A DNA stretch of 64,000 nucleotides. It comes from Lacunisphaera limnophila. GTDB taxonomy: Bacteria; Verrucomicrobiota; Verrucomicrobiia; Opitutales; Opitutaceae. Location of the stretch: contig NZ_CP016094.1 in assembly GCF_001746835.1 (NCBI RefSeq), positions 1,426,001 to 1,490,000 on the forward strand. The letters are read 5' to 3'. The position numbers and the translations under genes are program-made. The notes below the pieces were generated by a model that made no database searches, was not told the origin of the DNA, and saw only the letters and a program-made list of their open reading frames with translations. This document shows positions 42,536 through 62,656 of this stretch, piece after piece (position 1 is the first letter of the stretch; each line of letters begins with the position of its first letter).

Positions 42536-42539
42536 GTTT

Positions 42540-42614
42540 AAGTCCTAAGTTTAAGTTGAAGAGAAAGACAGGAGGAAAGCGGGAGTCTTAAACTTCAACT
42601 TTCCCCTTCAACTG
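42540..42614. repeat. AAGTTTAAGTTGAAG inverted repeat between araA and araD
   Basis: The left arm AAGTTTAAGTTGAAGAGAAA and the right arm TCTTAAACTTCAACTTTCCC pair imperfectly around a 20-base purine-rich centre. Both arms also contain repeated TTAAGTTGAAG-like words. It fills the araA-araD gap. Confidence 0.7.
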
Positions 42615-42626
42615 GTTTTCGGGCCC

Positions 42627-44135: not shown

Positions 44136-44145
44136 GAGAAGGGAA

Positions 44146-44181
44146 AGTAGCTAGTAGCGGGTAGTGGGTAGCGAGTAGGGG
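44146..44181. repeat. 7-bp tandem repeat (GTAGCGG) between araA and araB
   Basis: Five units with period 7: GTAGCTA, GTAGCGG, GTAGTGG, GTAGCGA, GTAGGGG. It is the intergenic relative of the coding tandem repeat at 36951. Confidence 0.7.
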
Positions 44182-44253
44182 AATCGTTATCGTTCTCTTC
44201 ATCGTTATCCTAATCTCGGCCGAGGAGAGAACGATTACGAGAACGAGAATGAT
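44182..44253. repeat. ATCGTTATCGTTCTC inverted repeat between araA and araB
   Basis: The left half begins AATCGTTATCGTTCTCTTC and ends CTCGG. The right half begins CCGAG and continues AGAGAACGATTACGAGAACG. They form a long imperfect stem with almost no loop. Each half is also internally repetitive (ATCGTT words). It reaches the araB stop codon. Confidence 0.75.
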
Positions 44254-45911: not shown

Positions 45912-46105
45912 GGGGTAAGAAGGGTGAGGTGTAGGGGCGGATGGGAGACCGGTCAACAGGAGGGTAGGCATGACCGTAATGTGGGGGGGACGGGGGGACG
46001 GCGGCGCGCGCCGAACAGCCTGTCCAGAGGCCAGGCGCCACCTGCCTGCATGACTTACTTGACGGTTACATGATTTGGGGGAAACAGTGCAGGCCTGTCA
46101 TTCCC
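45912..46105. promoter_or_regulatory. Divergent araB / LacI regulator control region
   Basis: A 194-base gap. Near 46059-46070 it holds TTGACGGTTACA, where GGTTACA is a typical LacI-family half-operator, and a related CATGACCGTAATG word lies near 45970. A degenerate AACCTG/CAGGTT-like hairpin sits around 46018-46042. No complete symmetric operator is evident, so exact sites are uncertain. Confidence 0.4.
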
Positions 46106-47188: not shown

Positions 47189-47314
47189 GCGGAACTCCAA
47201 TCCTGCCGGGCGGGATCATAACTATCGGCAGGGTCCATAACTCTGACAAATGGGCTTGATCTCATTTGCTACTTATATTTATTAAGTATTAGTTTCCACC
47301 CCAACCCCAAGCGT

Positions 47315-49711
47315 ATGACCCCACGTATTCCCGTCGTATTCACGCGGGCCCGGGCAGCAGGTTGCTGCTGCCTGGCCCTTTTTGCCCTCTCGGCCCAGGC
47401 CCAGACCACCCCCACCACCCCCACCGCCGCGCCGGCGCCAGTCGGGGAGACCGTCGTGCTCCCCACCTTCTCGGTGTCGACGAACAAGGACAGCGGCTAC
47501 CGGGCCGCCAACTCCGTGTCGGCCACCCGGGTGGACACCGCGATCAAGGACCTGCCGTTCGCGATCAGCGCCTTCACCGAGCAGTTCATCACCGACGTCG
47601 GGGCGCGCGACCTCTTCGATGTGGTGCAGTACGCACCCAGCGTGACCAGTGCGGGCAAGGAGTTCAACTCCGGCAACTCGGTCTATGCGATCCGCGGCTT
47701 TGACCAGGCGCCGCAGCACAACGGTTTTGTGGGCGAGGGTTACGTGGACACCGCGACGATCGAGCGCGTCGAGGTGGTGAAGGGGCCGTCGTCGCTCCTC
47801 TACGGCCAGGTCGCCCCCGGCGGCACGGTCAACTACATCACCAAACGCGCGCACGCCAAGGCCCGCACGTCGATCAACGCCCAGTTCGGCACCCACAACT
47901 TCTGGCGCACAGGCCTGGACGTGAACCAGCCGTTGGTGGGCGACAAGCTGCTGTTCCGTTTCAACGGCGTGTATGAGAACGGCCTCGAGTTTCTCAACCC
48001 CGGCGCGCAGAAGACCCGCGTGCTGGCGCCGACCCTCACCTGGAACATCAGCGACCGGGTCGCGCTGACCGTCGACTACCAGTGGTTCCGCCGCCGGGAG
48101 AACCCGCCGCAGGCGCAGCTCAAGCCCAACGTCGAGATCGTCGGTCTCCCGCCGGCCAGCGGCATCCTCAGTGCGAGCGGGCTGCTGATCAATCCGCTCA
48201 ACAACATCGATCCCGGCTTCCTGACCTACTATCCGCTCCCGCGTGATTTCAACTACGTCTCCCGAAGCGACTATCGCGACTCGGATTACGAGTCGGTCAA
48301 CGCCGAGCTCACGGCCCGTCTGAACGACCACTGGACGGCGCGGGCCAACTTCAATTGGAACACGCGCCGGGTGGCCCACAAGCTGACGGGCCTCGGCGCC
48401 GTCAGCATCACCGTGCCGACCAGCTACTACCCGACCGGCGCCACCCTGCCGATCTCCGCGGCCAACTACCGGCTCGCCGCCATCGCCTACGCCGAGGACC
48501 TGCTCACGAACATTGATCTCGCGCTCCTCGCGCCCCAAGCCCAGCTGGGCCGCCGCAAGCGCCTCCAGGAGGACTGGGGCTTCGGCCGCACGTCCCAACT
48601 CGAGTTCGCCGGCAGCTATGTCACCCATGGCGTGAAGCTGAAGCCGCTCGTCGGCTTCTTCTACAACGAGTCCGTCAGCCGGGGCCTGCTGCGCTCCAGC
48701 CCGACCGCCAGCTTCTTCCCGGTCTGGGACATGAAGAACCCGGCCACGTGGAACTACGACACCGACTTCGACCCGGGCGCACAGCCCATCACCACGAACT
48801 CCCGTTCTCCCGGCCGCAACTCGGCCGCCTACGCCATCATGAACGCGAGCTTCCTTGAGGACCGCCTCAACGTCGTGGCGGGCGCCCGGTACAACAAGTC
48901 CTCGGGGGCGACCGACAATCTCCTGAACCCCGCCGCCAGCGTGGCCAAGGTCTCGGCCAAAAAGATCACGCCCCAGGCTGGCATGGGTTGGAAGATCACC
49001 CGCGACATGATGATCTATGCCTCGTACAGCCAGTCCTACGTCAACAATGCGGCCGCCCTCCAGCGGGCCAACGTGCCGATCGGGCCCGCCAAGCCCACCA
49101 CGGCTGAGGGCTACGAACTCGGCCTGAAGACCGATTTCCTCGGCGGGCGCGTGTCGTCCACCGTCGCGATCTTCCAGATCGACCAGAAGGACCGCATCCT
49201 GCGCTTCAACTCCTTCAACTCCTCGGGCGTGACGGTCACGAACAGCCTTCAAGACACCATCGATCGCAGCAAGGGCATCGAGGCCGAGCTGACCTGGTCG
49301 CCGGTCGACAACTGGCAGGTCTATCTCAGCGGGGCCATGAACGACATCCGCGTCATCCAGGTTCCCCCGGGCATGGAGGCCTTCATCGGCAGCCACCCCG
49401 AGGCGACGGTCAAGGCGCTCTTCAACCTGTGGACGCGCTACAGCTTCACGCAGGACGCGGTGAAGGGCCTGTGGGTGGGCGGTGGCTTCAATCACACCGG
49501 CCGGAAGGCGCAACGCACCAACAACCCGCGGCTCTTTCTGCCCGCCGACACGCTCTGGAACTCGGCCATCGGCTACGACTGGAAGCGGGGGGACCGCGAC
49601 ATGAGCGTGGTCGTGAACTGGCAGAACATGGAGGACATCGAATACTATCCGGCCAACCAGCAACGCGGCCTGCCCGGTCGCGCCACGGTCTCCTTCACCA
49701 CCCGCTTCTAA
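47315..49711 (+). CDS. TonB-dependent outer-membrane receptor
   Basis: A 798-residue receptor. It has a signal peptide (to about residue 30), a Pro/Thr linker, a possible TonB box (VVLPTFSVST), a plug domain (PFAISAFTEQFITDVGARDLFDVVQYAPSV, VEVVKGPSSLLYGQVAPGGTVNYITKR) and a 22-stranded barrel ending in Phe (RATVSFTTRF). The plug is most like siderophore-type receptors, but the position between a LacI regulator and sugar genes suggests a carbohydrate ligand. No SusD partner is present. A strong terminator follows. Confidence 0.9.
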   Translation: MTPRIPVVFTRARAAGCCCLALFALSAQAQTTPTTPTAAPAPVGETVVLPTFSVSTNKDSGYRAANSVSATRVDTAIKDLPFAISAFTEQFITDVGARDLFDVVQYAPSVTSAGKEFNSGNSVYAIRGFDQAPQHNGFVGEGYVDTATIERVEVVKGPSSLLYGQVAPGGTVNYITKRAHAKARTSINAQFGTHNFWRTGLDVNQPLVGDKLLFRFNGVYENGLEFLNPGAQKTRVLAPTLTWNISDRVALTVDYQWFRRRENPPQAQLKPNVEIVGLPPASGILSASGLLINPLNNIDPGFLTYYPLPRDFNYVSRSDYRDSDYESVNAELTARLNDHWTARANFNWNTRRVAHKLTGLGAVSITVPTSYYPTGATLPISAANYRLAAIAYAEDLLTNIDLALLAPQAQLGRRKRLQEDWGFGRTSQLEFAGSYVTHGVKLKPLVGFFYNESVSRGLLRSSPTASFFPVWDMKNPATWNYDTDFDPGAQPITTNSRSPGRNSAAYAIMNASFLEDRLNVVAGARYNKSSGATDNLLNPAASVAKVSAKKITPQAGMGWKITRDMMIYASYSQSYVNNAAALQRANVPIGPAKPTTAEGYELGLKTDFLGGRVSSTVAIFQIDQKDRILRFNSFNSSGVTVTNSLQDTIDRSKGIEAELTWSPVDNWQVYLSGAMNDIRVIQVPPGMEAFIGSHPEATVKALFNLWTRYSFTQDAVKGLWVGGGFNHTGRKAQRTNNPRLFLPADTLWNSAIGYDWKRGDRDMSVVVNWQNMEDIEYYPANQQRGLPGRATVSFTTRF

Positions 49712-50718: not shown

Positions 50719-51621
50719 CTAAGGCAATCCCGGCTGCACCGGCAGAATCTTCAGCCGTTCGAGGAAGGCATTGGATTTCGCGGCGATGATCGCGCGTTCC
50801 TCCTGGGTGCCGAGGTTGTGGGCGCCGCCGGGGAGGGTGACGAATTCGCAGGCGTTGCCGGTGGCACGCAGTTTTTCGTCCAGGGCCACGGCATACTGGT
50901 AGGGTACGACGGTGTCGGCGTCGCCGTGAAACATCAGCACCGGCGGCATGCGGGCGTCGAGTTGGTGCTGAGGGGAAAGGGCGAGGCCGTGGCCGGCGAA
51001 GCGGTCGGAGCGCTGGCCGCCGGATTCGGAGGTGTCGGCGGCGGCGCTGAGCAGGATCAAGGCGGCGGGTGGGTGGAGCGGGGCCGTGGCCGGGTCACTG
51101 CCCCAGGGCGTGGCGGTGATGGCGGTCCAGAGCGCGAGATGACCGCCGGCGGAGGAGCCGCTGACGACCACGCGCTGCGGGTCGATCCCGAGCTCGGTGG
51201 CGTGGGTCTGGACCCAGTGCAGGGCGGCACGGGCGTCGGCGACGCATTGGGTGGCATCGGTGCCGTGGCGGTTTTTCACGCGGTAATCCACGGCGATGCC
51301 GACGAGGCCGAGCTTGGCGGCGTTGCGGCCGTAGCCGGCGGATTGGAGCGGGGTGCCGTTCAGGAAGCCGCCGCCGAAGAAATGGATCCAGGCCGGGCGC
51401 CGGTCCGCGGCCGACCAGCCGGCGGGTTTGAACACGTGGAGCCGCATGGGCTCCGGCGGCAACTCCTGATAGATGAAGGTTTCGGCGCCGGGGAGGGTGA
51501 GAGGGGTTTCCACGGATTTGAGCGGCGCTAGCGCGCGGGTGGACGCCTGACTTTCGGCTGAGCTCAAGGCCGGCGGCAGGCAGGCACTGACCAGCAGAGT
51601 GGCGAGGAGGCGGATCAGCAT
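50719..51621 (-). CDS. Exported alpha/beta hydrolase (esterase/acetylesterase-like)
   Basis: A 300-residue enzyme with a signal peptide (about 1-22). It has an HFFGGGF oxyanion motif and nucleophile Ser157 in GSSAGGH. The acid is probably in MFHGDADTVVPYQYA and the His in PGGAHNLG. This is the BD-FAE/acetyl-esterase type that often removes acetyl or feruloyl groups from glycans. It is the last gene of the eight-gene operon, 6 bases after the alginate-lyase-family gene. Confidence 0.88.
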   Translation of the reverse strand: MLIRLLATLLVSACLPPALSSAESQASTRALAPLKSVETPLTLPGAETFIYQELPPEPMRLHVFKPAGWSAADRRPAWIHFFGGGFLNGTPLQSAGYGRNAAKLGLVGIAVDYRVKNRHGTDATQCVADARAALHWVQTHATELGIDPQRVVVSGSSAGGHLALWTAITATPWGSDPATAPLHPPAALILLSAAADTSESGGQRSDRFAGHGLALSPQHQLDARMPPVLMFHGDADTVVPYQYAVALDEKLRATGNACEFVTLPGGAHNLGTQEERAIIAAKSNAFLERLKILPVQPGLP

Positions 51622-51627
51622 GGCGGA

Positions 51628-52764
51628 TTACCTCGGGTTGGCGGCGGCCTCGGCGAGCAGGTGATCAAGAAAGCCCGGTGCCAGTTTTTCGTTCTGCCGG
51701 TGAGGCCAGGTCTCGGGCGCCGTGTTGTAGGGGCGGAGGAATTCGACGGCGCGGCGCAGGCTCGCGCCGTTGGGCGCGGTGTAGGCCCAGAAGTCGGTCC
51801 CGAGCCCGGCGGCATGCCGGGCGGCGACGGCGAGGGCCTCCAGGTTGAAGACGCTGTAGCCCAGGCCGTCCGCGCGACGGATTTCCTCCGGCTGGCTGCC
51901 GTCGGGCTGGATCTGGTGGACGATGAGCGCCCGGGCTTCCTCCATCAGCGCGCGGGCCAACGTGTCCTGACCGGTGTAGCGGGCCAGGGGGATGGCCTGG
52001 GCGAAATACCACGAGCCATGGTTGTTCTTCGCCGCCCGCTCCTCGAGCGCGACCGGGGCGGTGGTGAACCAGTGCAGGAAAGCCGTGAACCACGTGCGGA
52101 TGACGGTTTTCTCGTCGTGGGCGAGGGCCGGGGAATCGTCGAGCAGGCGGAGCGCGTCGACGACCTGCGCGAAGCCGCGGGAGTCAAGCAAGCCGGTGGG
52201 GTTGCCGCGGTTCCGGTCATGGCCGAGACGGACCTGGGCGTAGTCCAGGTGCGGGTTCATGCGCGTGGCCGGCGTGACGAACCACGCGCGCAGCCACGCG
52301 CCGGCGCGGCGCGCGGCGGTTTCATCCCGGTGCACGTGCCAGGCCGCGGCGAGTTGCTCGACCGTGTCACAGAATTCCCCGATGCGCTGCCGGTCACCGC
52401 GGGCGACCTGTTCGCGGTTGTGTCGGCCGTCATGCCGGACAAAGGGCAGACCGTCGGGCTTGGCCGGGTCCGGCCACCAGTAGCGCGCGTAGCTCACGTA
52501 GTCGTGCGGATCACCGCTCGGCGGCAGGACGGTTTTGTCGGTGACGGTCGTGATGGGGACGGTGAGGGCGGCTGGCGCGTGCTTGGCGAGGGTGGCCAGT
52601 TCGGCAGGGGTGTGCTGCCAGGAGTCGAGGGCGAAAGAGGGGACGGACCAGAGGACGCAGGCGAAAGCCAGCAGGGCTCCTCGTGGGCCCGCGAGCTTGC
52701 TCGCGCCAAGCCCGCGCCCGCGAGCGGGCTGCGAACAGCTTTTAGCGGAGCTGGATCGAGTCAT
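51628..52764 (-). CDS. Alginate lyase-family protein
   Basis: A 378-residue exported protein with an (alpha/alpha) toroid of the Alginate_lyase (PL5-like) type. Landmarks are DYVSYARYWWPDPAKPDGLPFVRHDG, TRMNPHLDYAQVRLG, the catalytic-type NNHGSWYFAQAIPLARYTGQ and the Tyr-containing LGYSVFNLEALAVAARHA. It probably cleaves a polyuronate by beta-elimination. The start is uncertain: the ATG used overlaps the upstream gene by 23 bases, and the residues before the hydrophobic LLAFACVLWSVPSFA come from a palindromic DNA repeat. Confidence 0.82.
   Translation of the reverse strand: MTRSSSAKSCSQPARGRGLGASKLAGPRGALLAFACVLWSVPSFALDSWQHTPAELATLAKHAPAALTVPITTVTDKTVLPPSGDPHDYVSYARYWWPDPAKPDGLPFVRHDGRHNREQVARGDRQRIGEFCDTVEQLAAAWHVHRDETAARRAGAWLRAWFVTPATRMNPHLDYAQVRLGHDRNRGNPTGLLDSRGFAQVVDALRLLDDSPALAHDEKTVIRTWFTAFLHWFTTAPVALEERAAKNNHGSWYFAQAIPLARYTGQDTLARALMEEARALIVHQIQPDGSQPEEIRRADGLGYSVFNLEALAVAARHAAGLGTDFWAYTAPNGASLRRAVEFLRPYNTAPETWPHRQNEKLAPGFLDHLLAEAAANPR
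52684..52733. repeat. GCGAGC/GCTCGC palindromes at the start of the alginate-lyase gene
   Basis: GCGAGCTTGCTCGC (perfect 6-base arms) is followed by a second hairpin, AGCCCG...CGGGCT. Both lie inside the predicted N-terminal coding region, upstream of the signal peptide core. Confidence 0.55.
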
Positions 52765-54931
52765 CAGTGAGGGTGAGGAGGATTTCGGTGCCGCCGTGGG
52801 TGATGGCGAGGGATCCATCGGGCGTGAGCGTCGCATCCACGAAAGCCAGACGCAGAGGCGCTCCCTCCGGGCTGACTGAGCGATAAGGGAAGAGCACGGC
52901 GTAGACGGTGTAGGTTTGGGCGGGCGCGGTGCTTTCGAGGGTGAGGTGCGTCTGGTTGTGCCATTTGCCGGTGAGGTAGGAACCGCTGATCTCGCCCGAG
53001 GCATACTTGGGATCGACTGGGACGGGGAACCGGTCGGTGACCGTGGCCTGCCAGGCGACGCCGGGGGAGACGAGCTTCACCTGCAGGGCCGTCTGACCGC
53101 CGCTGCCCTCGAGGTGGAGGCGGTTGTCCCCCAGCCACTCGATGCCCTTTTCGCCGTGCAGCAGCCACGACAGCTTGCCCGGCGTGGCGAGTTCGACGCG
53201 GTCGCGGAGAACGAGGTAGCGTTGGTCGATGAAGACGAGGTCGCGGGTGACACGCTGCACGCGACCCTTCGGCTGAAGCGTTTGGTAGGCGGCGGTGGCG
53301 TCGCCGGTGGTGAGCACGTAACGATCGCCGGTCTCGAAGCGGGTGATGCGGCCGGTGGCGTCCTTACTCTGGGCCTTTTGGCCGAGGCCGTCGATGAGCA
53401 GCGTGTTTTTGGAAATCGTCTGGCGGGTCCAGTCGCGGTGGTGCGGGGAATTGTGGAATTCGCGATAGGCGGAATTGATTGCGAGGCCTTCGCCGTACGC
53501 GTTCAGGATGAAGCTATTTTGATCCGCGTGGCTGTGGCTGAAGGAGCCGTAGGGCGAGGATTTGAAGGTGACGTGGATGTCATTCGCCGGATCGCCGAGT
53601 GCGCTATGGAGCGAGACCCAGCCGACGTCGGCGAAGTGGCGTTGCGGCGGGAGCCCCGCGACAGGCTCGGGGCCTTGAGCTTGTCGAGACGGTTCGTTGA
53701 GCGGACGGGCGGCGGGCAGAGGGTAGGCGGAGGCGATGAAGTTGCGGACAAGAAACTCAGCGGCGGTGGGGTAGGTGCGGCTGAGATCGTCGAGGCCCTT
53801 GTCGATGGGGCGGGGGCGGCGGTCGGTGCAGAGCTCGGCGTAGGTGCGCAGGAATCCGTTCTGCTGCACGCGCGCGAGGTGTTCCATGTAGTCGGCGATG
53901 ACGGGCTCGAGGTTGAAACGGCCGGCGTTGGAGGTGTCGCCGAAGGTCGTGTGGAGGTAGGGCTGGACATGGTAGACCGCGAAGAGCGGGGAGTTCCGCC
54001 AGAACGGCGACGCGTAGGCGGCGGGATCGCCGAGGGCGAGGAGGGCGTCCTGGAAAGCCGCGTGCTCGAAGGTGCCGCGCCAGTAGGCGGTGCCCTCGCC
54101 CCAGCCGCCGTCGTCGCCGCCCCAGGGACTGAACTGGTCGCGGTAGAATTGGTAGGCGTAGGTCCACCAGTCGCGCGCCTCGGGTAAGTCGTCCCACAGC
54201 GCGAGGGCGGTGAGGCCGGTCATCGGCATGAAGCGCACGGGATGCGAGGAGAGGTCGGCCGCGATGGAGTTGCGGGTGATCTGCGAGATGTTGCCCTCGT
54301 GTTCGATCCACTCGACAGAGCGGCGGCCGCGCTCGCGGAAGTGGGCGAGGATGGCGGACTTCTCGGCGGGGGTCAGCTGGTCGCGGAGCTGGTCGTAGAC
54401 CAGGGGCAATTTGCGCCACAAACGGAAGTGGGCCTCATCGTTGTAGTAGATGTCGGTGGCGCCGACGACGGCGCCGGATTTCCAGTCGGGGGCGAAGTGC
54501 CAGGCGGCCGCGCCGAGGAGGAAATCGCGGGCCTTGGTGAGGTACTTTTCCTCGCCGGTGACGATCCAGCAGAGGCTGGCGGCCTCGGCGACGGCGGAGA
54601 TCACGCCACAGGTGTCCTGGACCGCGCGCCACTGGTCGGCCATGGCGGAGGTGCGTTTCGAGGGGGCCGGGTCGCCGTAGGTGACGGGTTCGGCGGGAAA
54701 GGGGAGGGCGAGGTACTTGGCGTCGAGGTCGGCCTTGAGCTTGGCGAAGGCCTTCGCGCCCTCGCCGGTGGTGCAGTAGGCGCGGAAGGCGTCGTGCCGG
54801 CCGGCGAGTACGTTGGTGCGCGGGGCAGCGGCGGGGACGATCGAGGCCGGCTCGGTTGCGGCTTGGGCCCATGGGCCCCATAAGGCGGATAGGCCCCATA
54901 GAAGAAACGCCGTGCGGCGAAGTGAGCGCAT
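52742..54931 (-). CDS. Heparinase II/III-family polysaccharide lyase
   Basis: A 729-residue exported lyase. It has a signal peptide (about 1-24), an alpha/alpha toroid (AHFRLWRKLPLVYDQLRDQLTPAEK, GWGEGTAYWRGTFEHAAFQDALLALG) and then the heparinase II/III beta domain with SHSHADQNSFILNAYGEGLAINSAYRE and TRQTISKNTLLIDG. It resembles PL15/PL17-type uronate lyases, but the exact glycan cannot be read off. A stretch near residue 420 (NEPSRQAQGPEPVAG) is encoded by a dispersed palindrome. The start MRSLRRTAF is one base after the DUF2264 stop. Confidence 0.88.
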   Translation of the reverse strand: MRSLRRTAFLLWGLSALWGPWAQAATEPASIVPAAAPRTNVLAGRHDAFRAYCTTGEGAKAFAKLKADLDAKYLALPFPAEPVTYGDPAPSKRTSAMADQWRAVQDTCGVISAVAEAASLCWIVTGEEKYLTKARDFLLGAAAWHFAPDWKSGAVVGATDIYYNDEAHFRLWRKLPLVYDQLRDQLTPAEKSAILAHFRERGRRSVEWIEHEGNISQITRNSIAADLSSHPVRFMPMTGLTALALWDDLPEARDWWTYAYQFYRDQFSPWGGDDGGWGEGTAYWRGTFEHAAFQDALLALGDPAAYASPFWRNSPLFAVYHVQPYLHTTFGDTSNAGRFNLEPVIADYMEHLARVQQNGFLRTYAELCTDRRPRPIDKGLDDLSRTYPTAAEFLVRNFIASAYPLPAARPLNEPSRQAQGPEPVAGLPPQRHFADVGWVSLHSALGDPANDIHVTFKSSPYGSFSHSHADQNSFILNAYGEGLAINSAYREFHNSPHHRDWTRQTISKNTLLIDGLGQKAQSKDATGRITRFETGDRYVLTTGDATAAYQTLQPKGRVQRVTRDLVFIDQRYLVLRDRVELATPGKLSWLLHGEKGIEWLGDNRLHLEGSGGQTALQVKLVSPGVAWQATVTDRFPVPVDPKYASGEISGSYLTGKWHNQTHLTLESTAPAQTYTVYAVLFPYRSVSPEGAPLRLAFVDATLTPDGSLAITHGGTEILLTLTDDSIQLR
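53659..53686. repeat. CGACAGGCTC...GAGCTTGTCG repeat inside the lyase gene
   Basis: Ten-base arms CGACAGGCTC and GAGCTTGTCG pair with one mismatch around GGGGCCTT. It is related to the intergenic element at 2216. Here it is translated in frame between the toroid and beta domains. Confidence 0.7.
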
Positions 54932-54932
54932 A

Positions 54933-56798
54933 TCAGGAAAGGGCGGGCAACGACCAGTGACGCAGATCCCAGTCGCCGAGTTTGGGGTGGTGGAGTTTCC
55001 AAGTGCCGGCGGGCGCGGCGAGAATTTGCCAGGGGGCGGAGGCCGCGCGGTCGGAACCACTCCAGGACAGGGCGGCGAGGAGGCCTGGGCCGTCGTGGCG
55101 GTGGGTCGTGGCGATGGGCGTGACGTGATAGGGGGCGGCGACGTGGCGGCGCTCGGTGGTGTCGTCGAGGCGTGTGTCCCAGTCCGTGGCGGTGAAACCC
55201 AGGAGGGGCTGGAGGGCGGTGCCGCGGTGGTCGGGGGAAAACGCGGTGAGGGCAGCGCGTTCCACCGGCGGAGCCGTCAGCGGCAGGGCGAAGCCCCCGA
55301 GGCTGAGGACGACCGGTTGGCGGGCCTCGTAGCGGTGGACGTGCAGCAGCCAGCCGGCGCGCCAGAAGACGAAGGTTTCGACGGAGGTGTTCACCTGGCC
55401 GGTCTTGGCGCCGAGGTTCCAGCTGTAGCCGAGGTGGTCGTCGGCGAGCTCGACGGCGACGGTCGAGTGACGGCCGAAGACGCGGCCGTCGTCGACCCGG
55501 GCCGTGAGCGCGCTGTCGGGAGAGACGGCCGAGATTTCGGGAAAGGCGTAGCAGAAGTGGACCCCGGTGCGGTAGCTGAGCTTGCTCCACTTCCACGCGC
55601 CATAGCGGAGCTGGGTGTTGCCGACCATGGAGCCGGCGTTGAGGATCTCGACCTCACCGTCGGGGAGGCTGCGGGTGACCAGGCCCGGCGCGGGCATGAC
55701 CCGGACGAAGCCACGCTCGGCGGGCAGGGGTTGTTCGGGGTCGTGCCAGAAGGCGTGATCCGGCGGCAAGAGCAGCGGGGTGAAGCCCTTGGCGGCCCAG
55801 TAGGGTGAAGCGGGGGCAGAATACGGCTCGATGATCCGCGGGAAGACGTCAGTGAACCCGGGGGCCAGCGCGCCCTGCGCGGTGTAGATCGGGCGGGAGA
55901 GAAAGAAGTCGAGGTTGCGCGTGCAGAGGCGGCGCAGCAGGCCGGGGGCGAGGTCGGTGCAGGCTTCGGCGAGGGCCAGGCCGAAGACGTTCAGACAGTT
56001 GAAACGGTAGGTGATGGAGCGGCCGAACGCCGGGTGTTCCCCGCTGGCGGCAAAGAAGTGCTGGTAGTCGGCAACGAACAGGCGCGCCCAGTCGCGCCAG
56101 CGGGTGGCCCGGGCCGGGTCCGCGGGACCATGCAGATGGGTCCACATGAGGCCGTAGAAGTGGAAGGCGTAGGCGTTGTAGTGGTCGTAGGCCTGGTTGA
56201 TGCCGTCCTCGAACCAGCCGCCGCCGCGGTGCATGGTCTCGAGCTGGTTGAGGTGGGCGGTGATGACGGCGCGGTCGGTGCGATGCGCGGCCCCCTGGGT
56301 TCCGAGGAACTCCAGGATGTGGACCGACATGAAAAGGTGGTTGTTATTGACGATGCCGCCGCCGCGGCAGGTGGCGAACCAGCGGAGCACCTGCGCCTGG
56401 TCGGTGGGAGCGAGCGGAGCCCAGAGGTCGCGCGGGGCTAGCTGCAGCGCGATGGCGAGCAGGCCCATCTCGACGTGGTGCTGGTGGTAGGAGGCGTCGG
56501 GCCCCCAGTATTGCGGGTGGGCGGGGTCAGTGCCGGCGACCAGGCCGGCGCGAAACCAGCGGGCGAGCTGCGCGCGGAGCGCGGCATCCTCCGGGTGCGG
56601 CGCCGACTGCAGCCAGAATGCGGCCAGCGTCAGCGGGCGGGCGAAGCTCTCGAGCCGGTCGGCCTGGGCGTCGTGGTCGGAGGGTGCGCCGGCCAGCGGC
56701 AGGTCGGCCCGGCCCGGCTGCATGAGGCCGGCCAGCGGTTCGAGCAGGCGGCGGGCGGCGTCCTGCCAGTGGCGGTAGGCGGGCGGCAGGTCGCTCAT
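54933..56798 (-). CDS. DUF2264-domain protein
   Basis: A 621-residue cytosolic protein with the DUF2264 alpha/alpha-barrel region over the first ~370 residues (RPLTLAAFWLQSAPHPED, YWGPDASYHQHHVEMGLLAIALQL, NNNHLFMSVHILEFLG, GGWFEDGINQAYDHYNAYAFHFYGLMW), followed by a beta-rich C-terminal domain. These proteins occur in polysaccharide-degradation clusters; the H-x-x-H and D-H-Y-N motifs suggest an enzyme, but chemistry is not established. It overlaps the upstream dehydrogenase gene by 4 bases. Confidence 0.87.
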   Translation of the reverse strand: MSDLPPAYRHWQDAARRLLEPLAGLMQPGRADLPLAGAPSDHDAQADRLESFARPLTLAAFWLQSAPHPEDAALRAQLARWFRAGLVAGTDPAHPQYWGPDASYHQHHVEMGLLAIALQLAPRDLWAPLAPTDQAQVLRWFATCRGGGIVNNNHLFMSVHILEFLGTQGAAHRTDRAVITAHLNQLETMHRGGGWFEDGINQAYDHYNAYAFHFYGLMWTHLHGPADPARATRWRDWARLFVADYQHFFAASGEHPAFGRSITYRFNCLNVFGLALAEACTDLAPGLLRRLCTRNLDFFLSRPIYTAQGALAPGFTDVFPRIIEPYSAPASPYWAAKGFTPLLLPPDHAFWHDPEQPLPAERGFVRVMPAPGLVTRSLPDGEVEILNAGSMVGNTQLRYGAWKWSKLSYRTGVHFCYAFPEISAVSPDSALTARVDDGRVFGRHSTVAVELADDHLGYSWNLGAKTGQVNTSVETFVFWRAGWLLHVHRYEARQPVVLSLGGFALPLTAPPVERAALTAFSPDHRGTALQPLLGFTATDWDTRLDDTTERRHVAAPYHVTPIATTHRHDGPGLLAALSWSGSDRAASAPWQILAAPAGTWKLHHPKLGDWDLRHWSLPALS

Positions 56799-57799
56799 GT
56801 CGAGGTGTCGTAGACCGTTGGGGTGATGACGGCGCGCAGCGGGCGGTCCTCGGCGTAGGCGACGAGGTTTTCGACGGCGAAGGCACCGGCGTCGCAGCGG
56901 CGGTCCGTTGTCGGGCCGGCGATGTGCGGGGTGAGCGACACGTTGCGCAGGCCGCGGAAGGGCGAGTCGGCGGGCAGCGGCTCGACCCCGTAGACATCAA
57001 GGCCGACCATGATCCGGCCTTCCTGCGCGACCCGCAGCAGCGCGGCCTCGTCGACGACGGCGCCGCGGCCGACGTTGACGAACACGCCGCCGGGCCGGAT
57101 GAGTCGGAGGTGTTTTTCCTGCACAAGGCCAGCGGTGGAGGGATTGAGCGGGGCGAGCTCGACGATGATGTCGTTCTCCGCGAACAAGGACTCGAGGGAG
57201 GCGGCGCGGCGGATGCCGTGGGCGGCCTCGACCTCCGGGGTCACGTCAGGGGCGAAGCTGGTAATCGTGACATGAAACGGACGCAGCAGCTGAACGAGCT
57301 CGCGGGCGATCTGGCCGTAGCCATGTAAACCGATGCGGCGACCGAAGAGCGAGGCGGTTTCGGTGCCGCCGTTTTTCCAGGCGCCTTCCGTATGCATGGC
57401 GATGGTCCAGTGCGGCGCGCGGCGGAGGCAGGCCAGGATGTGGAACAGGGCCCATTCGGCGACGACGCGGCTGATGGAGCCGCCCCAGTTGGTGACGACT
57501 AGGCCGGCCTCCAGCTGGTCGCGGCGGACGAGCCGGCGGACGGAACCGCAGAGGTAGCAGACATAACGGAGGCGGGGCGGGAGGACGGGAGGCAGGGGCG
57601 GGGTTTTCCAGCAGGCCAGCAACACCTCGGGATCCGCGGCGGCGAGGGCGGAGGCAAAATCCGCAGCGCTTTGTCCGGTCGGATCCCAGACGGTAAAGCG
57701 CGGCGTGACAGCCCGGGCCTGGCCGAGCAACGGCTCGGGGAGGAAATCACGGAGCTCCTCGGCGGTCAGCGAGGCAAGGATGGCGACGGGGCGCGGCAT
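56795..57799 (-). CDS. D-2-hydroxyacid dehydrogenase family protein
   Basis: A 334-residue NAD-dependent dehydrogenase: GRRIGLHGYGQIARELVQLLRPF as the Rossmann loop, catalytic Arg in FVNVGRGAVVDEAALL, Glu in GLDVYGVEPLP and His in NVSLTPHIAGPT. This is the phosphoglycerate/D-lactate dehydrogenase superfamily. In this operon it most likely reduces or oxidises a sugar-acid-derived keto acid, which is inference. It is 30 bases after the ManA-like gene. Confidence 0.88.
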   Translation of the reverse strand: MPRPVAILASLTAEELRDFLPEPLLGQARAVTPRFTVWDPTGQSAADFASALAAADPEVLLACWKTPPLPPVLPPRLRYVCYLCGSVRRLVRRDQLEAGLVVTNWGGSISRVVAEWALFHILACLRRAPHWTIAMHTEGAWKNGGTETASLFGRRIGLHGYGQIARELVQLLRPFHVTITSFAPDVTPEVEAAHGIRRAASLESLFAENDIIVELAPLNPSTAGLVQEKHLRLIRPGGVFVNVGRGAVVDEAALLRVAQEGRIMVGLDVYGVEPLPADSPFRGLRNVSLTPHIAGPTTDRRCDAGAFAVENLVAYAEDRPLRAVITPTVYDTST

Positions 57800-57829
57800 G
57801 GGAGAATGGGTCGGGGCGGGGGGAGAGGG

Positions 57830-58936
57830 TCAGGCGACCGGTTGGCCCGGGGCGGGGGCGTCCGGCGGGTAGCATTCCAGGATCGAGGCGACGGGCCCGG
57901 GGGTGATGGCCAGCGGGCCGAGGCCGGCGGGCGCGAAAAACTTGTCGTAGAGTCCGAGGTGGTGCGTCTCGCCGCCGACCTGGACGGTGCAGGCGCCGGC
58001 CGTGACAATGCCGATGTGTGCGGCGGGTTCGATCTTGGTGGCCGGGCCGCGGTAGTGCGAATGGCGCATCCGGAAGCAGGGCGTGCGTTCGGGCCCGATG
58101 AGGTCATCCTGATGCGAGTCCGGCCCGAGGGCGCGGCGCCGGCGCGGGGGACAGACGGCCTCGGTCTGAACGCGGTGGAGCGGCCAGGGGGCGGGGTCGA
58201 AGACATCGAGGCAGAAGTCGAGTCCGCGGCCCATGAAGCGCGCGGACTCCGGCAGCACGTAGCCGCCGCGCTCGAACTCGAAACGGACGACGAGGTCGCT
58301 GGGTTCCTGGACTTCGACGAGCAGGATGCCTTCGCCCAAGGCGTGGGGCACGCCGCCGGGCACGAGAAAGGTGTCGCCGGGCTGAACCGGAATCCGGTCG
58401 AAGCAGGCCTCGAGGGCAGCGAGGTCCTGGGTCTCGATCAGGCGGCGGAGTGTCGCCCGGCCGGGGGGGCGCTGGAAGCCGAGATAAATATAGGGGGCCG
58501 CGACCTCCGGACGGGTGGCGAGGACGTGATAGGCCTCGGTCTTGCCCGAGGGTGAATTCAGGAAGCGGCGGGCGAAGGCGGCGGTCGGGTGGACCTGAAA
58601 GTGCAAGCGGATCGACGGGTCCAGCAGCTTGACCAGCAGGTGGGGCGAGGCGCCGTGGGCCGCCGCATGGTCGGCCCCGAGGAAATAGGCGGGGTCGGTG
58701 GCGAGCAGGGGGGCGAAATCGTGGAGCTCACCGCCCACGCGCACCGTCGAGCGGCCCTCAGGAATGGCTTCGCGACCGGGATTGACGGCGCGGGTGGTGG
58801 AGGCGACCCAGTCCTCGGGAAAGTGGCTGTCCGCGGGGGCGGCGGCCGCGGCGAGCCGGTCGAGGTTTTGCCCGCCCTGGTAGGTGCGCCAGACGCGGTT
58901 GGGGGGGAGGAGGACGAGTTTACCGCGGGGGTCCAT
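57830..58936 (-). CDS. ManA-like class I phosphomannose isomerase
   Basis: A 368-residue cupin-type protein with the zinc site residues of class I mannose-6-phosphate isomerase: LHFQVHPTAAFA (Gln/His pair), KTEAYHVLA (Glu), and GGVPHALGEGILLVEVQEPSDLVVRFE (His). The C-terminal cupin half is PATKIEPAAHIGIVTAGACTVQVGG. It may isomerise mannose or fructose 6-phosphate, or a related sugar in this pathway. It starts 6 bases after the SDR stop, within the operon. Confidence 0.85.
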   Translation of the reverse strand: MDPRGKLVLLPPNRVWRTYQGGQNLDRLAAAAAPADSHFPEDWVASTTRAVNPGREAIPEGRSTVRVGGELHDFAPLLATDPAYFLGADHAAAHGASPHLLVKLLDPSIRLHFQVHPTAAFARRFLNSPSGKTEAYHVLATRPEVAAPYIYLGFQRPPGRATLRRLIETQDLAALEACFDRIPVQPGDTFLVPGGVPHALGEGILLVEVQEPSDLVVRFEFERGGYVLPESARFMGRGLDFCLDVFDPAPWPLHRVQTEAVCPPRRRRALGPDSHQDDLIGPERTPCFRMRHSHYRGPATKIEPAAHIGIVTAGACTVQVGGETHHLGLYDKFFAPAGLGPLAITPGPVASILECYPPDAPAPGQPVA

Positions 58937-58942
58937 GGAGGT

Positions 58943-59701
58943 TCAGATGACGGCGCTGAGGCCGCCGTCGACGGTGAGGATCTGGCCGTTGATGAAATCG
59001 GCGGCGGGCGAGGCGAGAAAGACACAGGCGCCGGTGAGGTCGTCAGCGCAGCCCCAGCGGCCGGCGGGGGTGCGGCCCTTGATCCAGGCGTCGAATTTCG
59101 GATCACCCGCGAGCGGGGCGGTGAGCTCGGTGAGGATATAGCCGGGGGCGAGGCCGTTGACCTGGATGTTATGCTGCGCCCACTCGGCGCACATGGCGCG
59201 CGTGAGCATCTTGAGGCCGCCCTTGGCGGCGGCGTAGTTGCCAGTCGTGGGCCGCGCGAGGTCGCTCATCAGCGAGCAGATGTTGATGATCTTGCCGCGG
59301 CGGCGGGCGATCATGCCCGGGGCGACGGCGCGGGTGACGAGGAAGGCGGAGGTGAGGTTGGTCTGGAGCACGGCGTGCCAGTCGGCCAGGGGCATGGACT
59401 CGAGCGGACCGCGGCGTTGGATGCCGGTGTTGTTGACGAGGATGTCGACGGCGCCGAGGCCGGCAGCCGCGGCCTGCACGGCGGATTCATCGGTGACGTC
59501 GAAGGCGGCGACCTCGATCGCGGCGTGGCCGGCGGCGCGCAGACCGGTGGCGGCGGTGGCGAGCCGCGCGGGGTCACGGCCGTTGAGGACGACCTGGGCG
59601 CCGGCGGCGGCCAGGGCCTGGGCGAGGGCGAGACCGATGCCCTGGGAAGAGCCGGTGACGAGGGCGCGGCGGCCCGCGAGGCTGAAGGAGGGCGCGTTCA
59701 T
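58943..59701 (-). CDS. SDR oxidoreductase, gluconate 5-dehydrogenase/KduD-like
   Basis: A 252-residue dehydrogenase: LVTGSSQGIGLALAQALA, LVNNTGIQRRGPLESM (the GIQRRG stretch is typical of gluconate 5-dehydrogenases), catalytic Ser in ICSLMSDLARP and YAAAKGGLKML, then VNGLAPGYILTELTAPL. NNTG replaces the common NNAG. Likely acts on a keto-gluconate or keto-deoxyuronate. It overlaps the symporter stop by 4 bases. Confidence 0.9.
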   Translation of the reverse strand: MNAPSFSLAGRRALVTGSSQGIGLALAQALAAAGAQVVLNGRDPARLATAATGLRAAGHAAIEVAAFDVTDESAVQAAAAGLGAVDILVNNTGIQRRGPLESMPLADWHAVLQTNLTSAFLVTRAVAPGMIARRRGKIINICSLMSDLARPTTGNYAAAKGGLKMLTRAMCAEWAQHNIQVNGLAPGYILTELTAPLAGDPKFDAWIKGRTPAGRWGCADDLTGACVFLASPAADFINGQILTVDGGLSAVI

Positions 59702-61446
59702 GCTTTGAGGGGGCGGCCGGAGCGGATCAGCAGGACGCCGATCAGCACGACCGTGCCACCGCAACCGAGGAAGGCAAGGCGACCGACCAGCGGGTTGGGG
59801 ATGAACGCGAGCAGGCAGACGAACACCCCGTACGCGAAGGAGAGCCAGCCCACCGCGGAGGACTGTTGGGTGTCATTGGCGTTGGCGGCGCCCTCCTCGC
59901 GGTCAAAATCAACCGGTGTGGTCATCTGGGTGAAGAATGCGTCAACCTGCGCGCGATGTTCCGGCGCACAGCGCGACCAGAACAGCTTGGTGCCGATGAA
60001 CCAGGTGGAGGCGAGGATGACATTGGCGAAGAACTGGAAGCCCTGGATCCAGTATTCGCGGGAGGCGGCGTCCAGGGGCAGCGGGTGGTTGAACAGGGCC
60101 GCACCCCACTCCGGCGTGAAGAACTGGCCGACGACCATCGAGCCGAAAAACCCGACCAGCACGGTGCTCCACGCTGACCACGGCGGGGTGTGGCGGATCA
60201 CGAGGCCGAGCAGCAGCGGCACGGTGACCGGCACGCCGATCAGGATGCTCACGCGCTGCATCATCAGGAAGAGGCCGAGTTCCTTGATCTCCGCCATGCG
60301 GATGGCGATGGAGATCACCAGCACGCCCAGCACGAAGGTGGCGAGGCGGCCGACCCGGAGCAACTGCCGTTCCGTGGCCTGCGGCCGGAAGAGCGGCTGG
60401 TAGAAGTTCTTCACGAAAAAGCCCGCGTTCTTGTTCAGGCCCGAGTCCATGCCCGACATGGTGGCCGCGAAGATGCCGCTCACGAGCAGCCCGAGCATGC
60501 CGACCGGCATGACCACCTGGGAGATGGCGATGAACGAGGCCTCGTCGGGGGACTTGAGGGTGGGGAAAATAGCGGCGAGGTCGATCTGCAGCGCCCGGGC
60601 GGCCATGGGCGGGAGAAACCAGATGAAGATGCCGACCACGAAGAGCCCGGCGCCGAGGTAGCCGGCCCAGCGGGCGTGACGGCTGTCCTTCACGCTGAGG
60701 TAGCGGCCGGCCTCGAAGAGGTTGTTCGTGCTGATGATCTGCTTGAGCAGCATCGCGGTGCACCAGAGGCCGAGGAACTCCTTGGTGAAAATCTCGCCGA
60801 GGTTGAGGTGGGCCACGGGCAGGCCGGCGACAAACCCGTCCCAGCCGCCGAGCCGCAGCAGGGCGAGGACGGTTACCGCCGCACACACCGGCATGAGGAT
60901 CAGCACCTGGATGAAGTCGGCCGCCAGCACGGCCCAGCTGCCGCCGAGAAGGGTCATCACGAGCACCACCACACCCGTGACGAGGAGCGTCCAGGTGAGG
61001 TCGAGGCCGAAGATGGCGGCGAAGAAGACGCCGAGGGCGTTGAGGTGGATGGCCGCCTGCAGGGTGCTGAGGGGGATCTGGAGCCACATCATGACCTGCT
61101 CGCTCACGGCGCCGAAGCGCTGGCGGATGGCCTCGACGGAGGTGATGACGCGCGTCTGCCGGAACCGCGGGGCGAAGAACACTGCGTTGAGCACGAAGCC
61201 CACGGCGTTGGCGACGAAGATGGCCATGACCGGCCAGCCATCGAGGTAGGCCTTGCTGGCGGCGCCGGTGAAAGTCCACGCGCTGAAGGCCGCCATGAAG
61301 GCAGAGCCCCCCACCATCCACCACACCGCCTTGCCGCCGCCCCGGAAGTAGTCGCTGATGTTCGTCACGAACTTCCGGAAGACCCAGCTGATCGCCAGCA
61401 TGTAGCCAAAGTAGAAAACGAGCACGGCGTAGTCGAAGCGGGTCAT
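59698..61446 (-). CDS. Sodium:solute symporter
   Basis: A 582-residue SSS-family transporter with about 14 hydrophobic helices. Family landmarks include SDYFRGGGKAVWWMVGGSAFMAAFSAWTFTG split over helix 1 and 2, and LGLLVSGIFAATMSGMDSGLNKNAGFFVKNFY, which corresponds to the family's SALSS region. It imports a sugar, uronate or oligosaccharide product with Na+. It is the first gene of the catabolic operon, about 100 bases after the LacI gene. Confidence 0.9.
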   Translation of the reverse strand: MTRFDYAVLVFYFGYMLAISWVFRKFVTNISDYFRGGGKAVWWMVGGSAFMAAFSAWTFTGAASKAYLDGWPVMAIFVANAVGFVLNAVFFAPRFRQTRVITSVEAIRQRFGAVSEQVMMWLQIPLSTLQAAIHLNALGVFFAAIFGLDLTWTLLVTGVVVLVMTLLGGSWAVLAADFIQVLILMPVCAAVTVLALLRLGGWDGFVAGLPVAHLNLGEIFTKEFLGLWCTAMLLKQIISTNNLFEAGRYLSVKDSRHARWAGYLGAGLFVVGIFIWFLPPMAARALQIDLAAIFPTLKSPDEASFIAISQVVMPVGMLGLLVSGIFAATMSGMDSGLNKNAGFFVKNFYQPLFRPQATERQLLRVGRLATFVLGVLVISIAIRMAEIKELGLFLMMQRVSILIGVPVTVPLLLGLVIRHTPPWSAWSTVLVGFFGSMVVGQFFTPEWGAALFNHPLPLDAASREYWIQGFQFFANVILASTWFIGTKLFWSRCAPEHRAQVDAFFTQMTTPVDFDREEGAANANDTQQSSAVGWLSFAYGVFVCLLAFIPNPLVGRLAFLGCGGTVVLIGVLLIRSGRPLKA

Positions 61447-61548
61447 GGGGTGGGGTCGTTCAAGACAATATAATAATTATTAAAGGCCAAGCCAAAAAAC
61501 CGCCGGGCAGCGGCGCGGGGCCGGGCGCGGCGGGCCGGGGTCATGGGA
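61447..61548 (-). promoter_or_regulatory. Promoter/operator region of the catabolic operon
   Basis: The 102-base gap before the symporter contains an AT-rich island in GC-rich surroundings, with the perfect palindrome TAATAATTATTA at 61471-61482, about 25 bases from the symporter ATG. It may be the -10 region, an operator for the adjacent LacI protein, or both. Confidence 0.45.
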
Positions 61549-62592
61549 TCACCGGGCGGGGCCGGTGGAGTTGCCGACCACGAGGGGGGCGGGGAGGACG
61601 AGGTCGCTGAAACCCTCGGCGGGGGTGCCCTCGCCGGCGACGAGGCGGGCGGCGGCCTCGCCGAGCTTGTCGGGGCTCGTGCCTGCGCCGGTGATGCGCA
61701 GCGCCCCTTCCACGCTCAGGCGGGAGACGTCGGCCGAGGCCAGGCTGATGTCGCCGGGCACGCGCCAGCCCGCGCGCTGCAGGGTGAGGGCGGCGCCGTA
61801 GGCCATCTGGGAGTTGTAGGTGACGAAGGCGGTGGGGAAGTCCTTGCGCTTGGCGTGGCGCAGCAGGGTGTGGATGGCTTCGGCGCCCTCGGCGCGGTCC
61901 GCCTGGTTGACAATGACGGTGTAGCGCGGATCCAGGGCCAGGCCGAGCGGTTGCAGGGCGGCGGTGAAAGCGGCGAGGCGGGCGTTGTGCCGGCCGAGGC
62001 CCGCGTTGCCGCCGAGCCAGCCGAAGCGCTGATGGCCCAGGTTGAAGAGGTGGCGGACCAGCTCGGTGAGGGCGCCGGGCTCGTTGCCAAGCACGGAGTG
62101 GCAAAGCCCGTGGTAGCGGGCGGACACGGCGACGACGCGCCGGGTGTGCCGGCACAACTCACCCAGAAAGGGCCGGGCTACTTCACCCAGCACGACGACG
62201 CCGCCCAGGCGGTTGCTGGGATGGAAACACTGGCCGAGCTTGGCCGGGCTGAGTTCGTCCTCGGCCCCGAGATAGACCAGGCGCTGGCCGAGCCGCTCGA
62301 GTTCCTGGTGCAGGCCATGCTGGACGTGGCCAAAGTAGGTGCTGGGAATGTAGAGGCGCAGCGGGGCGCGCAGGATGTAGCCGATCTGCCCGAGGCGCGA
62401 GGCCTCCGGGGTGGAGTCGACGCGCATGCCCTTGGGCAGGTAGCCCTGGCTGATGGCGCGATCCCAGATGCGCTGGTAGGTGTCGGGGTTGATGCCCGCG
62501 CTGCGTCCGTTGAGGGCGAGGGAAACGAGGGCCTGGGAGACGCCGAGCTCCTTGGCGAGGAGGGTTTGGGAGATTTTTTTCTTCGGCCGCAC
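61549..62592 (-). CDS. LacI-family transcriptional regulator
   Basis: A 347-residue regulator: HTH at residues 3-55 (KKISQTLLAKELGVSQALVSLALNGRSAGI), then a sugar-binding sensor domain (GGVVVLGEVARPFLGELC, LVRHLFNLGHQRFGWLGG, AFVTYNSQMAYGAALTLQRAGWRVPGDISLAS). It lies directly upstream of, and co-directional with, the lyase operon and is its likely local repressor. The start ATG is followed by RPKKK, as is usual. Confidence 0.9.
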   Translation of the reverse strand: MRPKKKISQTLLAKELGVSQALVSLALNGRSAGINPDTYQRIWDRAISQGYLPKGMRVDSTPEASRLGQIGYILRAPLRLYIPSTYFGHVQHGLHQELERLGQRLVYLGAEDELSPAKLGQCFHPSNRLGGVVVLGEVARPFLGELCRHTRRVVAVSARYHGLCHSVLGNEPGALTELVRHLFNLGHQRFGWLGGNAGLGRHNARLAAFTAALQPLGLALDPRYTVIVNQADRAEGAEAIHTLLRHAKRKDFPTAFVTYNSQMAYGAALTLQRAGWRVPGDISLASADVSRLSVEGALRITGAGTSPDKLGEAAARLVAGEGTPAEGFSDLVLPAPLVVGNSTGPAR

Positions 62593-62656
62593 GCTCCAGC
62601 TCTTGATAAGTATGACCGGAGGTTCAACGCCTTATTGGCCAGGAGGGCGCGGGAAT

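Follow-up and report, generated by a model that had tools for sequence, protein, structure and literature searches.

Introduction

Lyases cutting at glucuronate (GlcA) yield 4-deoxy-L-threo-5-hexosulose uronate (DHU) and those cutting at mannuronate yield 4-deoxy-L-erythro-5-hexoseulose uronate (DEH), the two products differing in stereochemistry at C2. DEH is reported to be reducible directly to 2-keto-3-deoxygluconate (KDG) (PMC6353982), whereas DHU first passes KduI or DhuI, the two nonhomologous DHU isomerases distinguished in a 2025 survey of 3,550 strains (PMC12838403). In the known pathway that passes through fructuronate, this compound is made by UxaC (PMC6353982). Further, beta-D-glucuronate dehydratase activity has been described for BcGDH and BT_3677, both of which act on GlcA compounds, and the reclassification of GH154 was proposed (Alvarez et al., 2025; PMC12269599). 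Here, we describe an operon of Lacunisphaera limnophila (Verrucomicrobiota; Opitutaceae) in which genes for polyuronate lyases and a DUF2264 (ex-GH154) protein are packed together with genes for a ManA-like protein of the phosphomannose isomerase (PMI) fold, a short-chain dehydrogenase/reductase (SDR) and a D-2-hydroxyacid dehydrogenase (2HADH). The operon lies in a window of 64,000 nucleotides, positions 1426001-1490000 of a genome assembled as a single 4.2-Mb contig.

We tentatively propose, with a confidence that comes close to even, that this is a LacI-controlled polyuronate locus in which 4-deoxy-5-keto-uronate would be converted to KDG by a uronate isomerase of the PMI fold, followed by a DhuD-like SDR. 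If true, the PMI fold would be a third DHU isomerase type beside KduI and DhuI, and a widespread gene, the closest named family of which is ManA, would gain a function. It would also explain a possible use of polyuronates by genomes without KduI and GH88, and account for the recurrent neighbourhood of DUF2264, 2HADH and ManA-like genes in Opitutales. The words 'mannose', 'ManA' and 'Verrucomicrob' are not present in the main text of the 2025 survey (PMC12838403). Our literature search covered open-access papers in PMC, with subscription papers and preprints outside its scope; it returned no description of a PMI-fold uronate isomerase, no mention of DUF2264 by name, and no pairing among 5-keto-4-deoxyuronate isomerase, mannose-6-phosphate isomerase and unsaturated glucuronate, and the term 'mannuronate isomerase' was not met in the related papers.

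The ManA-like protein as a candidate uronate isomerase

The ManA-like protein (P0003) has the type I phosphomannose isomerase fold in an AlphaFold2 (AF2) model of high confidence (pLDDT 91.3), which superimposes on 1qwr_B with a VIA Z of 32.9 and a root-mean-square deviation of 2.7 over 307 residues. It reaches only 38.1 bits against the ManA model (TIGR00218), for which the curated cut-off is 116.2 bits, and gives no match at E 0.001 to PF04962, the family of KduI. The Q/H/E/H metal site (Q114, H116, E134 and H198) and K132 are invariant in 24 orthologs, as are R110, R142 and R233. Full-length orthologs with 48-51% identity have been found in Psychromonas, Marinomonas, Vibrio, Reinekea, Colwellia and an Alteromonadaceae metagenome-assembled genome (MAG), and orthologs with 52-56% identity in two planctomycete MAGs. 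Of 20 positions compared, 19 agree for the most part between Opitutaceae and 11 aligned gammaproteobacterial orthologs. The compared positions of the active site largely agree across all groups, with Lys replacing R223 in gammaproteobacteria. A plasmid search with P0003 gave weak matches only, called phosphomannose isomerase where annotated.

Around the gammaproteobacterial orthologs, UxuA is encoded in the flank of 10 of the 13 loci, UxuB in 9 and TRAP DctM in 9, and in Vibrio (L195) the ManA-like gene starts 8 bp after the gene for UxuB, the fructuronate reductase. UxaC was found in none of the 13 within the fetched flanks, which are short for L192 and L204. Because the enzyme that makes fructuronate is missing from loci that carry UxuA and UxuB, the ManA-like protein appears, judging from this context, to fill the uronate-isomerase slot in gammaproteobacteria. 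In Marinomonas (L190, L191 and L196-L198), a beta-hydroxyacid dehydrogenase-type gene, tartronate-semialdehyde-reductase-like but below the cut-off, stands beside the ManA-like gene and parallels the 2HADH of Opitutaceae.

The adjoining reductases

The SDR gene lies 6 bp upstream of the ManA-like gene. The best PDB matches of its product are gluconate 5-dehydrogenases (281 bits), followed by 4u8g (gbs1891; 218 bits), while the 2-deoxy-D-gluconate 3-dehydrogenases 4hp8 and 4z9y, which we take to be KduD-type, score 167 and 158 bits. The gbs1891 protein of S. agalactiae is described as DhuD (PMC6837340). By these scores, in which gluconate 5-dehydrogenases rank higher than either, the SDR appears to be nearer to DhuD than to KduD. 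Against the KduD model (TIGR01832) it scores 215.3 bits, below the curated cut-off of 338.85 bits; the KduD-like label of a first-pass annotation, made from the letters alone, thus had to be dropped, while its other gene families agree in outline with Pfam.

In the 2HADH, R245, E273, H292 and G157/G160/G162 are invariant in 23 homologs. Its gene comes immediately after the ManA-like gene in 45 of 57 loci; here and below, locus counts refer to named verrucomicrobial loci with enough flank. The symporter (SSF) gene precedes the ManA-like gene in 43/53 and DUF2264 is present in 23/52. The low-G+C loci L083-L086 were read by tblastn and long open reading frames (ORFs).

The putative DUF2264 dehydratase

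It had been stated that DUF2264 has no fixed chemistry, which no longer holds, since the former GH154 is a uronate dehydratase family (PMC12269599) and its active site is largely kept here. Of the ten active-site residues mutated in BcGDH, the window protein (P0005) keeps eight (E74, R78, N176, N177, Y229, R285, Y289 and Y354) and departs at two, with His at W178 and Met at F181. No signal peptide was seen on it. Across 36 DUF2264 sequences, the W178 position is His in 28, all from Verrucomicrobiota, and Trp in eight. The latter include proteins of Rhizobium and Agrobacterium whose genes adjoin GH88; GH88 as the partner of DUF2264 holds in these two genera and not in the window operon. Since Verrucomicrobiota also account for four of the eight Trp sequences, and since a GH88-like gene lies near one of the His loci (L095), the residue is the mark of a clade and no more than hints at a difference in partner use.

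A second set of LacI, DUF2264, 2HADH and SSF genes with a GH5-type gene occurs in the same genome (L017:4696-13749; DUF2264 at C1:2206590-2208464), in which no ManA-like, PL15-like or PL38-like gene was seen. The Tat-like N-terminus of its DUF2264 protein indicates that this dehydratase is probably exported.

The lyases and the likely esterase

Both lyases could be assigned to families. The closest PDB match of the PL15-like protein is Atu3025 (3a0o; 213.6 bits), and His311, Tyr365 and His531, for which catalytic roles have been described (PMC11921355), align with H273, Y326 and H509 of the longer ORF (P0006). This homology and the conserved His/Tyr/His place the protein in PL15. The PL38-like protein scores 249.7 bits with 3nfv and 190.8 bits with 8bdq (BoPL38), and its membership of PL38 is supported by the homology to BoPL38 and by the conserved NNHG and Tyr of the HY pair, the latter presumably catalytic in PL38. 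Chain 9fi1 differs at a His for which both the window protein and 3nfv have Gly. Characterized PL38 enzymes act on alginate, on glucuronan, or on hyaluronan and weakly on chondroitin sulfate (PMC13027841), and the family therefore does not fix the polymer. The candidate polymers are alginate and glucuronan, either of them possibly acetylated.

PL38 is present in only 3/45 loci, and the PL38-like lyase and the esterase are accessory to the module. A heparinase II/III-type lyase, whether PL15-like or other, is found in 30/46 loci, and in some the lyase has been exchanged for a different heparinase II/III-type protein while the core stays. Such a replacement, of approximately 720-770 aa, was seen in L051, L056, L071, L081-L083, L085, L096, L126, L131, L132, L160 and L180, a list that holds some genomes fetched twice.

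Distribution across the family

The module was surveyed in 200 genomes of the family, with the ManA-like protein called at E <=1.8e-64 and the DUF2264 relative at E <=1.8e-142. The former was found in 77/200 and the latter in 47/200; both occurred in 45 genomes, the DUF2264 relative alone in 2, the ManA-like protein alone in 32 and neither in 121 (Fisher p 2e-21). The 45 include G165, counted irrespective of context, and G044, whose ManA-like match sits in a different setting (L090). A KduI-type match is missing in 11 of these 45 genomes, and GH88/GH105 is also missing in six of the 11. The KduI count is conservative: an IolB-type match with a second match was scored positive, not every second match having been seen, and three sampled strong matches fit the IolB model, one of them over its cut-off. 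KDPG aldolase was found in all 45, the genome of L. limnophila included.

Operon organization and putative regulon

The eight genes all lie on the minus strand (61446-50719) with a coding-type composition by codon position, and the lacI gene is located 102 bp upstream. In operon order, the junctions are an overlap of 4, gaps of 6 and 30, an overlap of 4, a gap of 1, an overlap of 23 and a gap of 6 bases, figures that rest on the chosen starts of the SDR (59701), PL15-like (54931) and PL38-like (52764) genes. The Pfam families are SSF, SDR, ManA-like cupin, 2HADH, DUF2264, Hepar_II_III_C, Alginate_lyase and BD-FAE/alpha-beta hydrolase; by Pfam family, no operon gene belongs to UxuA or UxuB. The compact operon behind a LacI regulator, as described in the first-pass annotation (overlaps of 4-23 and gaps of at most 30 bases), is thus confirmed, and the view that it serves polyuronate use, with lyases and an esterase that appear to be exported (N-termini judged by eye), is supported. 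The proposed comparison of gene order across relatives recovered the module core in many genera, which rules out a chance packing of the operon genes. The operon, the operator motif described below, the gene families and the conserved active sites are all read directly from the sequence.

An operator motif was derived by comparing the spacers before the symporter gene in 13 loci with LacI and SSF genes, from which an AT-rich palindrome within a GC-rich background emerged that occurs in all 13 source loci. With up to one mismatch, the window holds seven matches at four places, compared with a shuffle mean of 0.10 matches (Table 1). In the 4.2-Mb genome, the perfect operator is found in two places, the operon promoter and C1:2800787. 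Genome-wide one-mismatch counts (15 forward and 14 reverse) barely exceed those of a reversed-pattern control (16 and 9), and single weak sites therefore mean little alone. Among 65 named verrucomicrobial loci, some of them from the very genomes that supplied the motif, 34 of 54 perfect operators are located <=150 bp upstream of a symporter gene and 34 of 45 symporter genes carry one upstream, while no perfect copy was found in 15 gammaproteobacterial and planctomycete loci. A gene of the same cluster as the TonB receptor gene is also near the module in L052, L054 and L068, with operator-like sites upstream in L054 and L068. As the motif stands before the operon, lacI and the TonB-dependent receptor gene, it suggests that the three are tied together in one regulon.

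Table 1. Features of the polyuronate locus, in coordinates of the window.
Feature	Position	Strand	Evidence or remark
LacI-family regulator, GTG start	61549..62592	-	Pfam Peripla_BP_3 73.9 bits; best NCBIfam match MalI, below cut-off
Sodium:solute symporter (SSF)	59698..61446	-	PF00474 124.8 bits; likely importer, putatively of uronate or oligouronate
SDR reductase, gluconate-5-dehydrogenase/DhuD-like	58943..59701	-	PDB matches
ManA-like (PMI-fold) protein, candidate hexuronate / 4-deoxy-5-keto-hexuronate isomerase	57830..58936	-	Fold, conserved residues, gene context
D-2-hydroxyacid dehydrogenase (2HADH)	56795..57799	-	PF02826 144.2 bits
DUF2264 (ex-GH154) putative uronate dehydratase, two-domain length	54933..56798	-	PF10022 318.6 bits (cut-off 25 bits)
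PL15-like lyase, signal-like N-terminus	52742..54931	-	Closest PDB match Atu3025 3a0o
PL38-like lyase, start uncertain, hydrophobic signal-like stretch	51628..52764	-	PF05426 261.6 bits
Alpha/beta-hydrolase, likely esterase, GSSAG motif, signal-like N-terminus	50719..51621	-	BD-FAE PF20434 92.2 bits
TonB-dependent receptor	47315..49711	+	PF00593/PF07715; outside the span first annotated
Perfect operator palindrome TAATAATTATTA	61471..61482		25 bp before symporter start
Operator-like site, one mismatch	62604..62615		12 bp upstream of lacI
Two operator-like sites, one mismatch each	47216-47227, 47273-47284		87 and 30 bp upstream of TonB gene 47315

The perfect operator at C1:2800787 (L119:6787) precedes, by a few bases, the gene of a Tat-type Gfo/Idh/MocA oxidoreductase, which may be another member of the regulon. 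Another Gfo/Idh/MocA oxidoreductase gene (62761-63990) is located upstream of lacI in the window and may belong to the locus, since a relative with 85% identity is likewise upstream of lacI in L180. Beside the regulon, a separate L-arabinose-type cluster (41834-47188) encodes L-arabinose isomerase, an FGGY kinase, a class II aldolase and a LacI protein.

The KDG end of the pathway

A KDG kinase and aldolase had been noted as absent, which is correct for the operon but not for the genome, so that a genome-wide lack can be ruled out. A pectin-type cluster at 1.828-1.848 Mb, approximately 345 kb away, encodes KdgA (the one KDPG aldolase match in the genome), KduI (the sole PF04962 match, at 1835320), KduD (371.2 bits, over the TIGR01832 cut-off), a KdgK-like PfkB kinase and three GH88/GH105 matches. 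The kinase is one of four PfkB matches and falls under every curated cut-off shown; GH88/GH105 has four matches over the cut-off in the genome, none of them in the window operon. With KdgA, a KdgK-like kinase, KduI and KduD encoded, the pathway probably has the standard end point, KDG. The suggestion of an off-textbook route therefore applies to the front end, in which the ManA-like protein and the SDR differ, but not to the end point. Co-regulation of kdgK and kdgA with the operon, which had been named as grounds for rejecting such a route, was checked at motif level only: two 17-kb stretches of the kdg/pectin cluster (L015/L016) hold no operator with up to one mismatch.

Proposed pathway and alternative explanations

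In the proposed pathway, the PL38-like (endo) and PL15-like (exo) lyases would cut a 1,4-linked, probably partly acetylated polyuronate outside the inner membrane, and the products would be taken up through the TonB receptor and the SSF symporter. The cytoplasmic DUF2264 enzyme would dehydrate saturated uronate, as a monomer or at a chain end, to the 4,5-unsaturated product that also arises from lyase action. This would open to 4-deoxy-5-keto-uronate (DHU from glucuronate and DEH from mannuronate), which the ManA-like protein would isomerize from the 4-deoxy-5-keto aldose to its 2-keto form, DK-II (3-deoxy-D-glycero-2,5-hexodiulosonate). The DhuD-like SDR would reduce DK-II to KDG, and the KdgK-like kinase and KdgA, encoded elsewhere, would complete its breakdown; the 2HADH would be an additional reductase with no assigned step. 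Because an aldose-ketose isomerase erases the difference at C2, the ManA-like protein and the SDR could serve both DHU and DEH. A wider proposal, which as a whole we consider rather doubtful, is that uronate isomerases of the PMI fold form a class of their own, distinct from UxaC, KduI and DhuI, which Verrucomicrobiota share with marine gammaproteobacteria. The Opitutaceae would combine this isomerase with a cytoplasmic DUF2264 dehydratase whose pocket is altered (W178 to His) and which converts free hexuronate directly to the 4-deoxy-5-keto acid. A single KDG route would then serve both kinds of uronate, saturated and unsaturated, with no need for UxaC, UxuB, UxuA, KduI or GH88.

Several observations weigh against the pathway set out first. 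The co-occurrence statistic is not corrected for phylogeny, and the presence of KDPG aldolase in 45/45 genomes lacks a base rate from genomes without the module. KduI is found in 34 of the 45 genomes with both genes compared with 79 of the remaining 155, and L. limnophila itself has true KduI and KduD; the ManA-like gene is therefore no simple substitute for KduI. Most or all of the compared residues recur in seven ManA-like paralogs that lie outside the module, so that the signature is not module-specific. The UxuB and UxuA partners in gammaproteobacteria imply a saturated hexuronate, not DHU, as the substrate. No more than 11 of 59 loci have the SDR gene directly before the ManA-like gene. 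The 2HADH gene, which follows it in 45/57 and is absent in 12/57, has no function in this scheme. Of the known isomerases KduI, DhuI (RpiB-type) and UxaC, the whole-genome searches covered the first.

Alternatively, two monomer streams may be handled separately, with the ManA-like protein acting on saturated uronate only (D-mannuronate or D-glucuronate to D-fructuronate), the 2HADH reducing DEH to KDG and an M-rich acetylated alginate as the polymer. We regard this as unlikely, although the UxuA/UxuB neighbours in gammaproteobacteria, the Marinomonas dehydrogenase that parallels the 2HADH, a PL7 alginate lyase gene in the flank of two of the 13 gammaproteobacterial loci (both Psychromonas), and the naming of the top-scoring solved PL15 and PL38 relatives as alginate lyases (reportedly so for BoPL38) would all fit. 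It is established that 2HADH enzymes usually reduce a keto group next to a carboxylate, which speaks against the assumed reduction of DEH, and the window operon has no gene of the UxuA or UxuB family. Among the verrucomicrobial loci searched, a UxuB-type match occurs only in L156, at the edge, and one DUF2264 locus (L113) has UxaC- and UxuA-type matches. DUF2264 would also be left unexplained, since both assayed dehydratases act on GlcA compounds (PMC12269599). A route to glycerate, with the 2HADH as hydroxypyruvate reductase followed by glycerate kinase, was also considered; only L055 and L071 were seen to have a glycerate kinase gene close to the module, and a scan of four TIM-barrel proteins gave no match to the hydroxypyruvate isomerase model. 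In these relatives, genes for a NamZ-type exo-muramidase and glycerate kinase stand beside the module (L055:5217-6602; L071:3302-4468).

The lyase product could instead be handled by KduI and KduD of the pectin cluster, as in the standard KDG route, with the ManA-like protein, the SDR and the 2HADH acting on some side sugar or minor product. KduI, KduD, KdgA and a KdgK-like kinase are indeed encoded in the genome, and KduI is present in most genomes with both marker genes; the missing operator in the two pectin-cluster stretches and the 11 genomes without a KduI-type match make this explanation improbable. Very improbable is an ordinary mannose-6-phosphate isomerase placed in the operon by happenstance. 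The PMI fold and the zinc site would be accounted for, but the score is far below the ManA cut-off, and 196 of the 200 family genomes have some match to the protein, with two in L. limnophila; genomes without the ortholog mostly match at E ~1e-6 to 1e-18, which we take to be the usual ManA. Moreover, no recognized mannose gene is among the clusters found in at least three loci.

Comparison with known systems

Several described systems are close to the locus, for which a conversion of 4-deoxy-5-keto-uronate to KDG by a PMI-fold isomerase with a DhuD-like SDR is proposed here. Genomes with Opitutales alginate systems, such as that of Verruconatronum alginivorum (PMC13274419), also encode PL15, PL38 and an SSF symporter, and the main text of that paper is without the words GH154, hydroxyacid and mannose-6-phosphate. 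The uxaC-uxuB-uxuA glucuronate pathway is related through the gammaproteobacterial ManA-like orthologs, which occur with uxuB and uxuA in most loci; it differs in that these loci have no uxaC and that the uxu genes are outside the window operon. The chondroitin polysaccharide utilization locus PUL25 of Bacteroides caccae, which encodes BcGDH (PMC12269599), shares the combination of an ex-GH154 dehydratase with a uronate lyase. In contrast to PUL25, the window operon has a PL15-like lyase and is without GH88 or hexosaminidase, and its dehydratase is longer than BcGDH, with His and Met at the W178 and F181 positions.

The gene arrangement also resembles that of the kduI-kduD, dhuD-dhuI and kduI-dhuD clusters (PMC12838403), in which the gene of an aldose-ketose isomerase (in the window, the candidate ManA-like one) likewise stands next to an SDR reductase gene, in the company of uronate lyases and on a route to KDG. 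In comparison with these clusters, the candidate isomerase of the window has the PMI fold and is neither KduI/IolB nor RpiB/LacAB, the kinase and the aldolase are encoded elsewhere, and a 2HADH and a putative uronate dehydratase are added.

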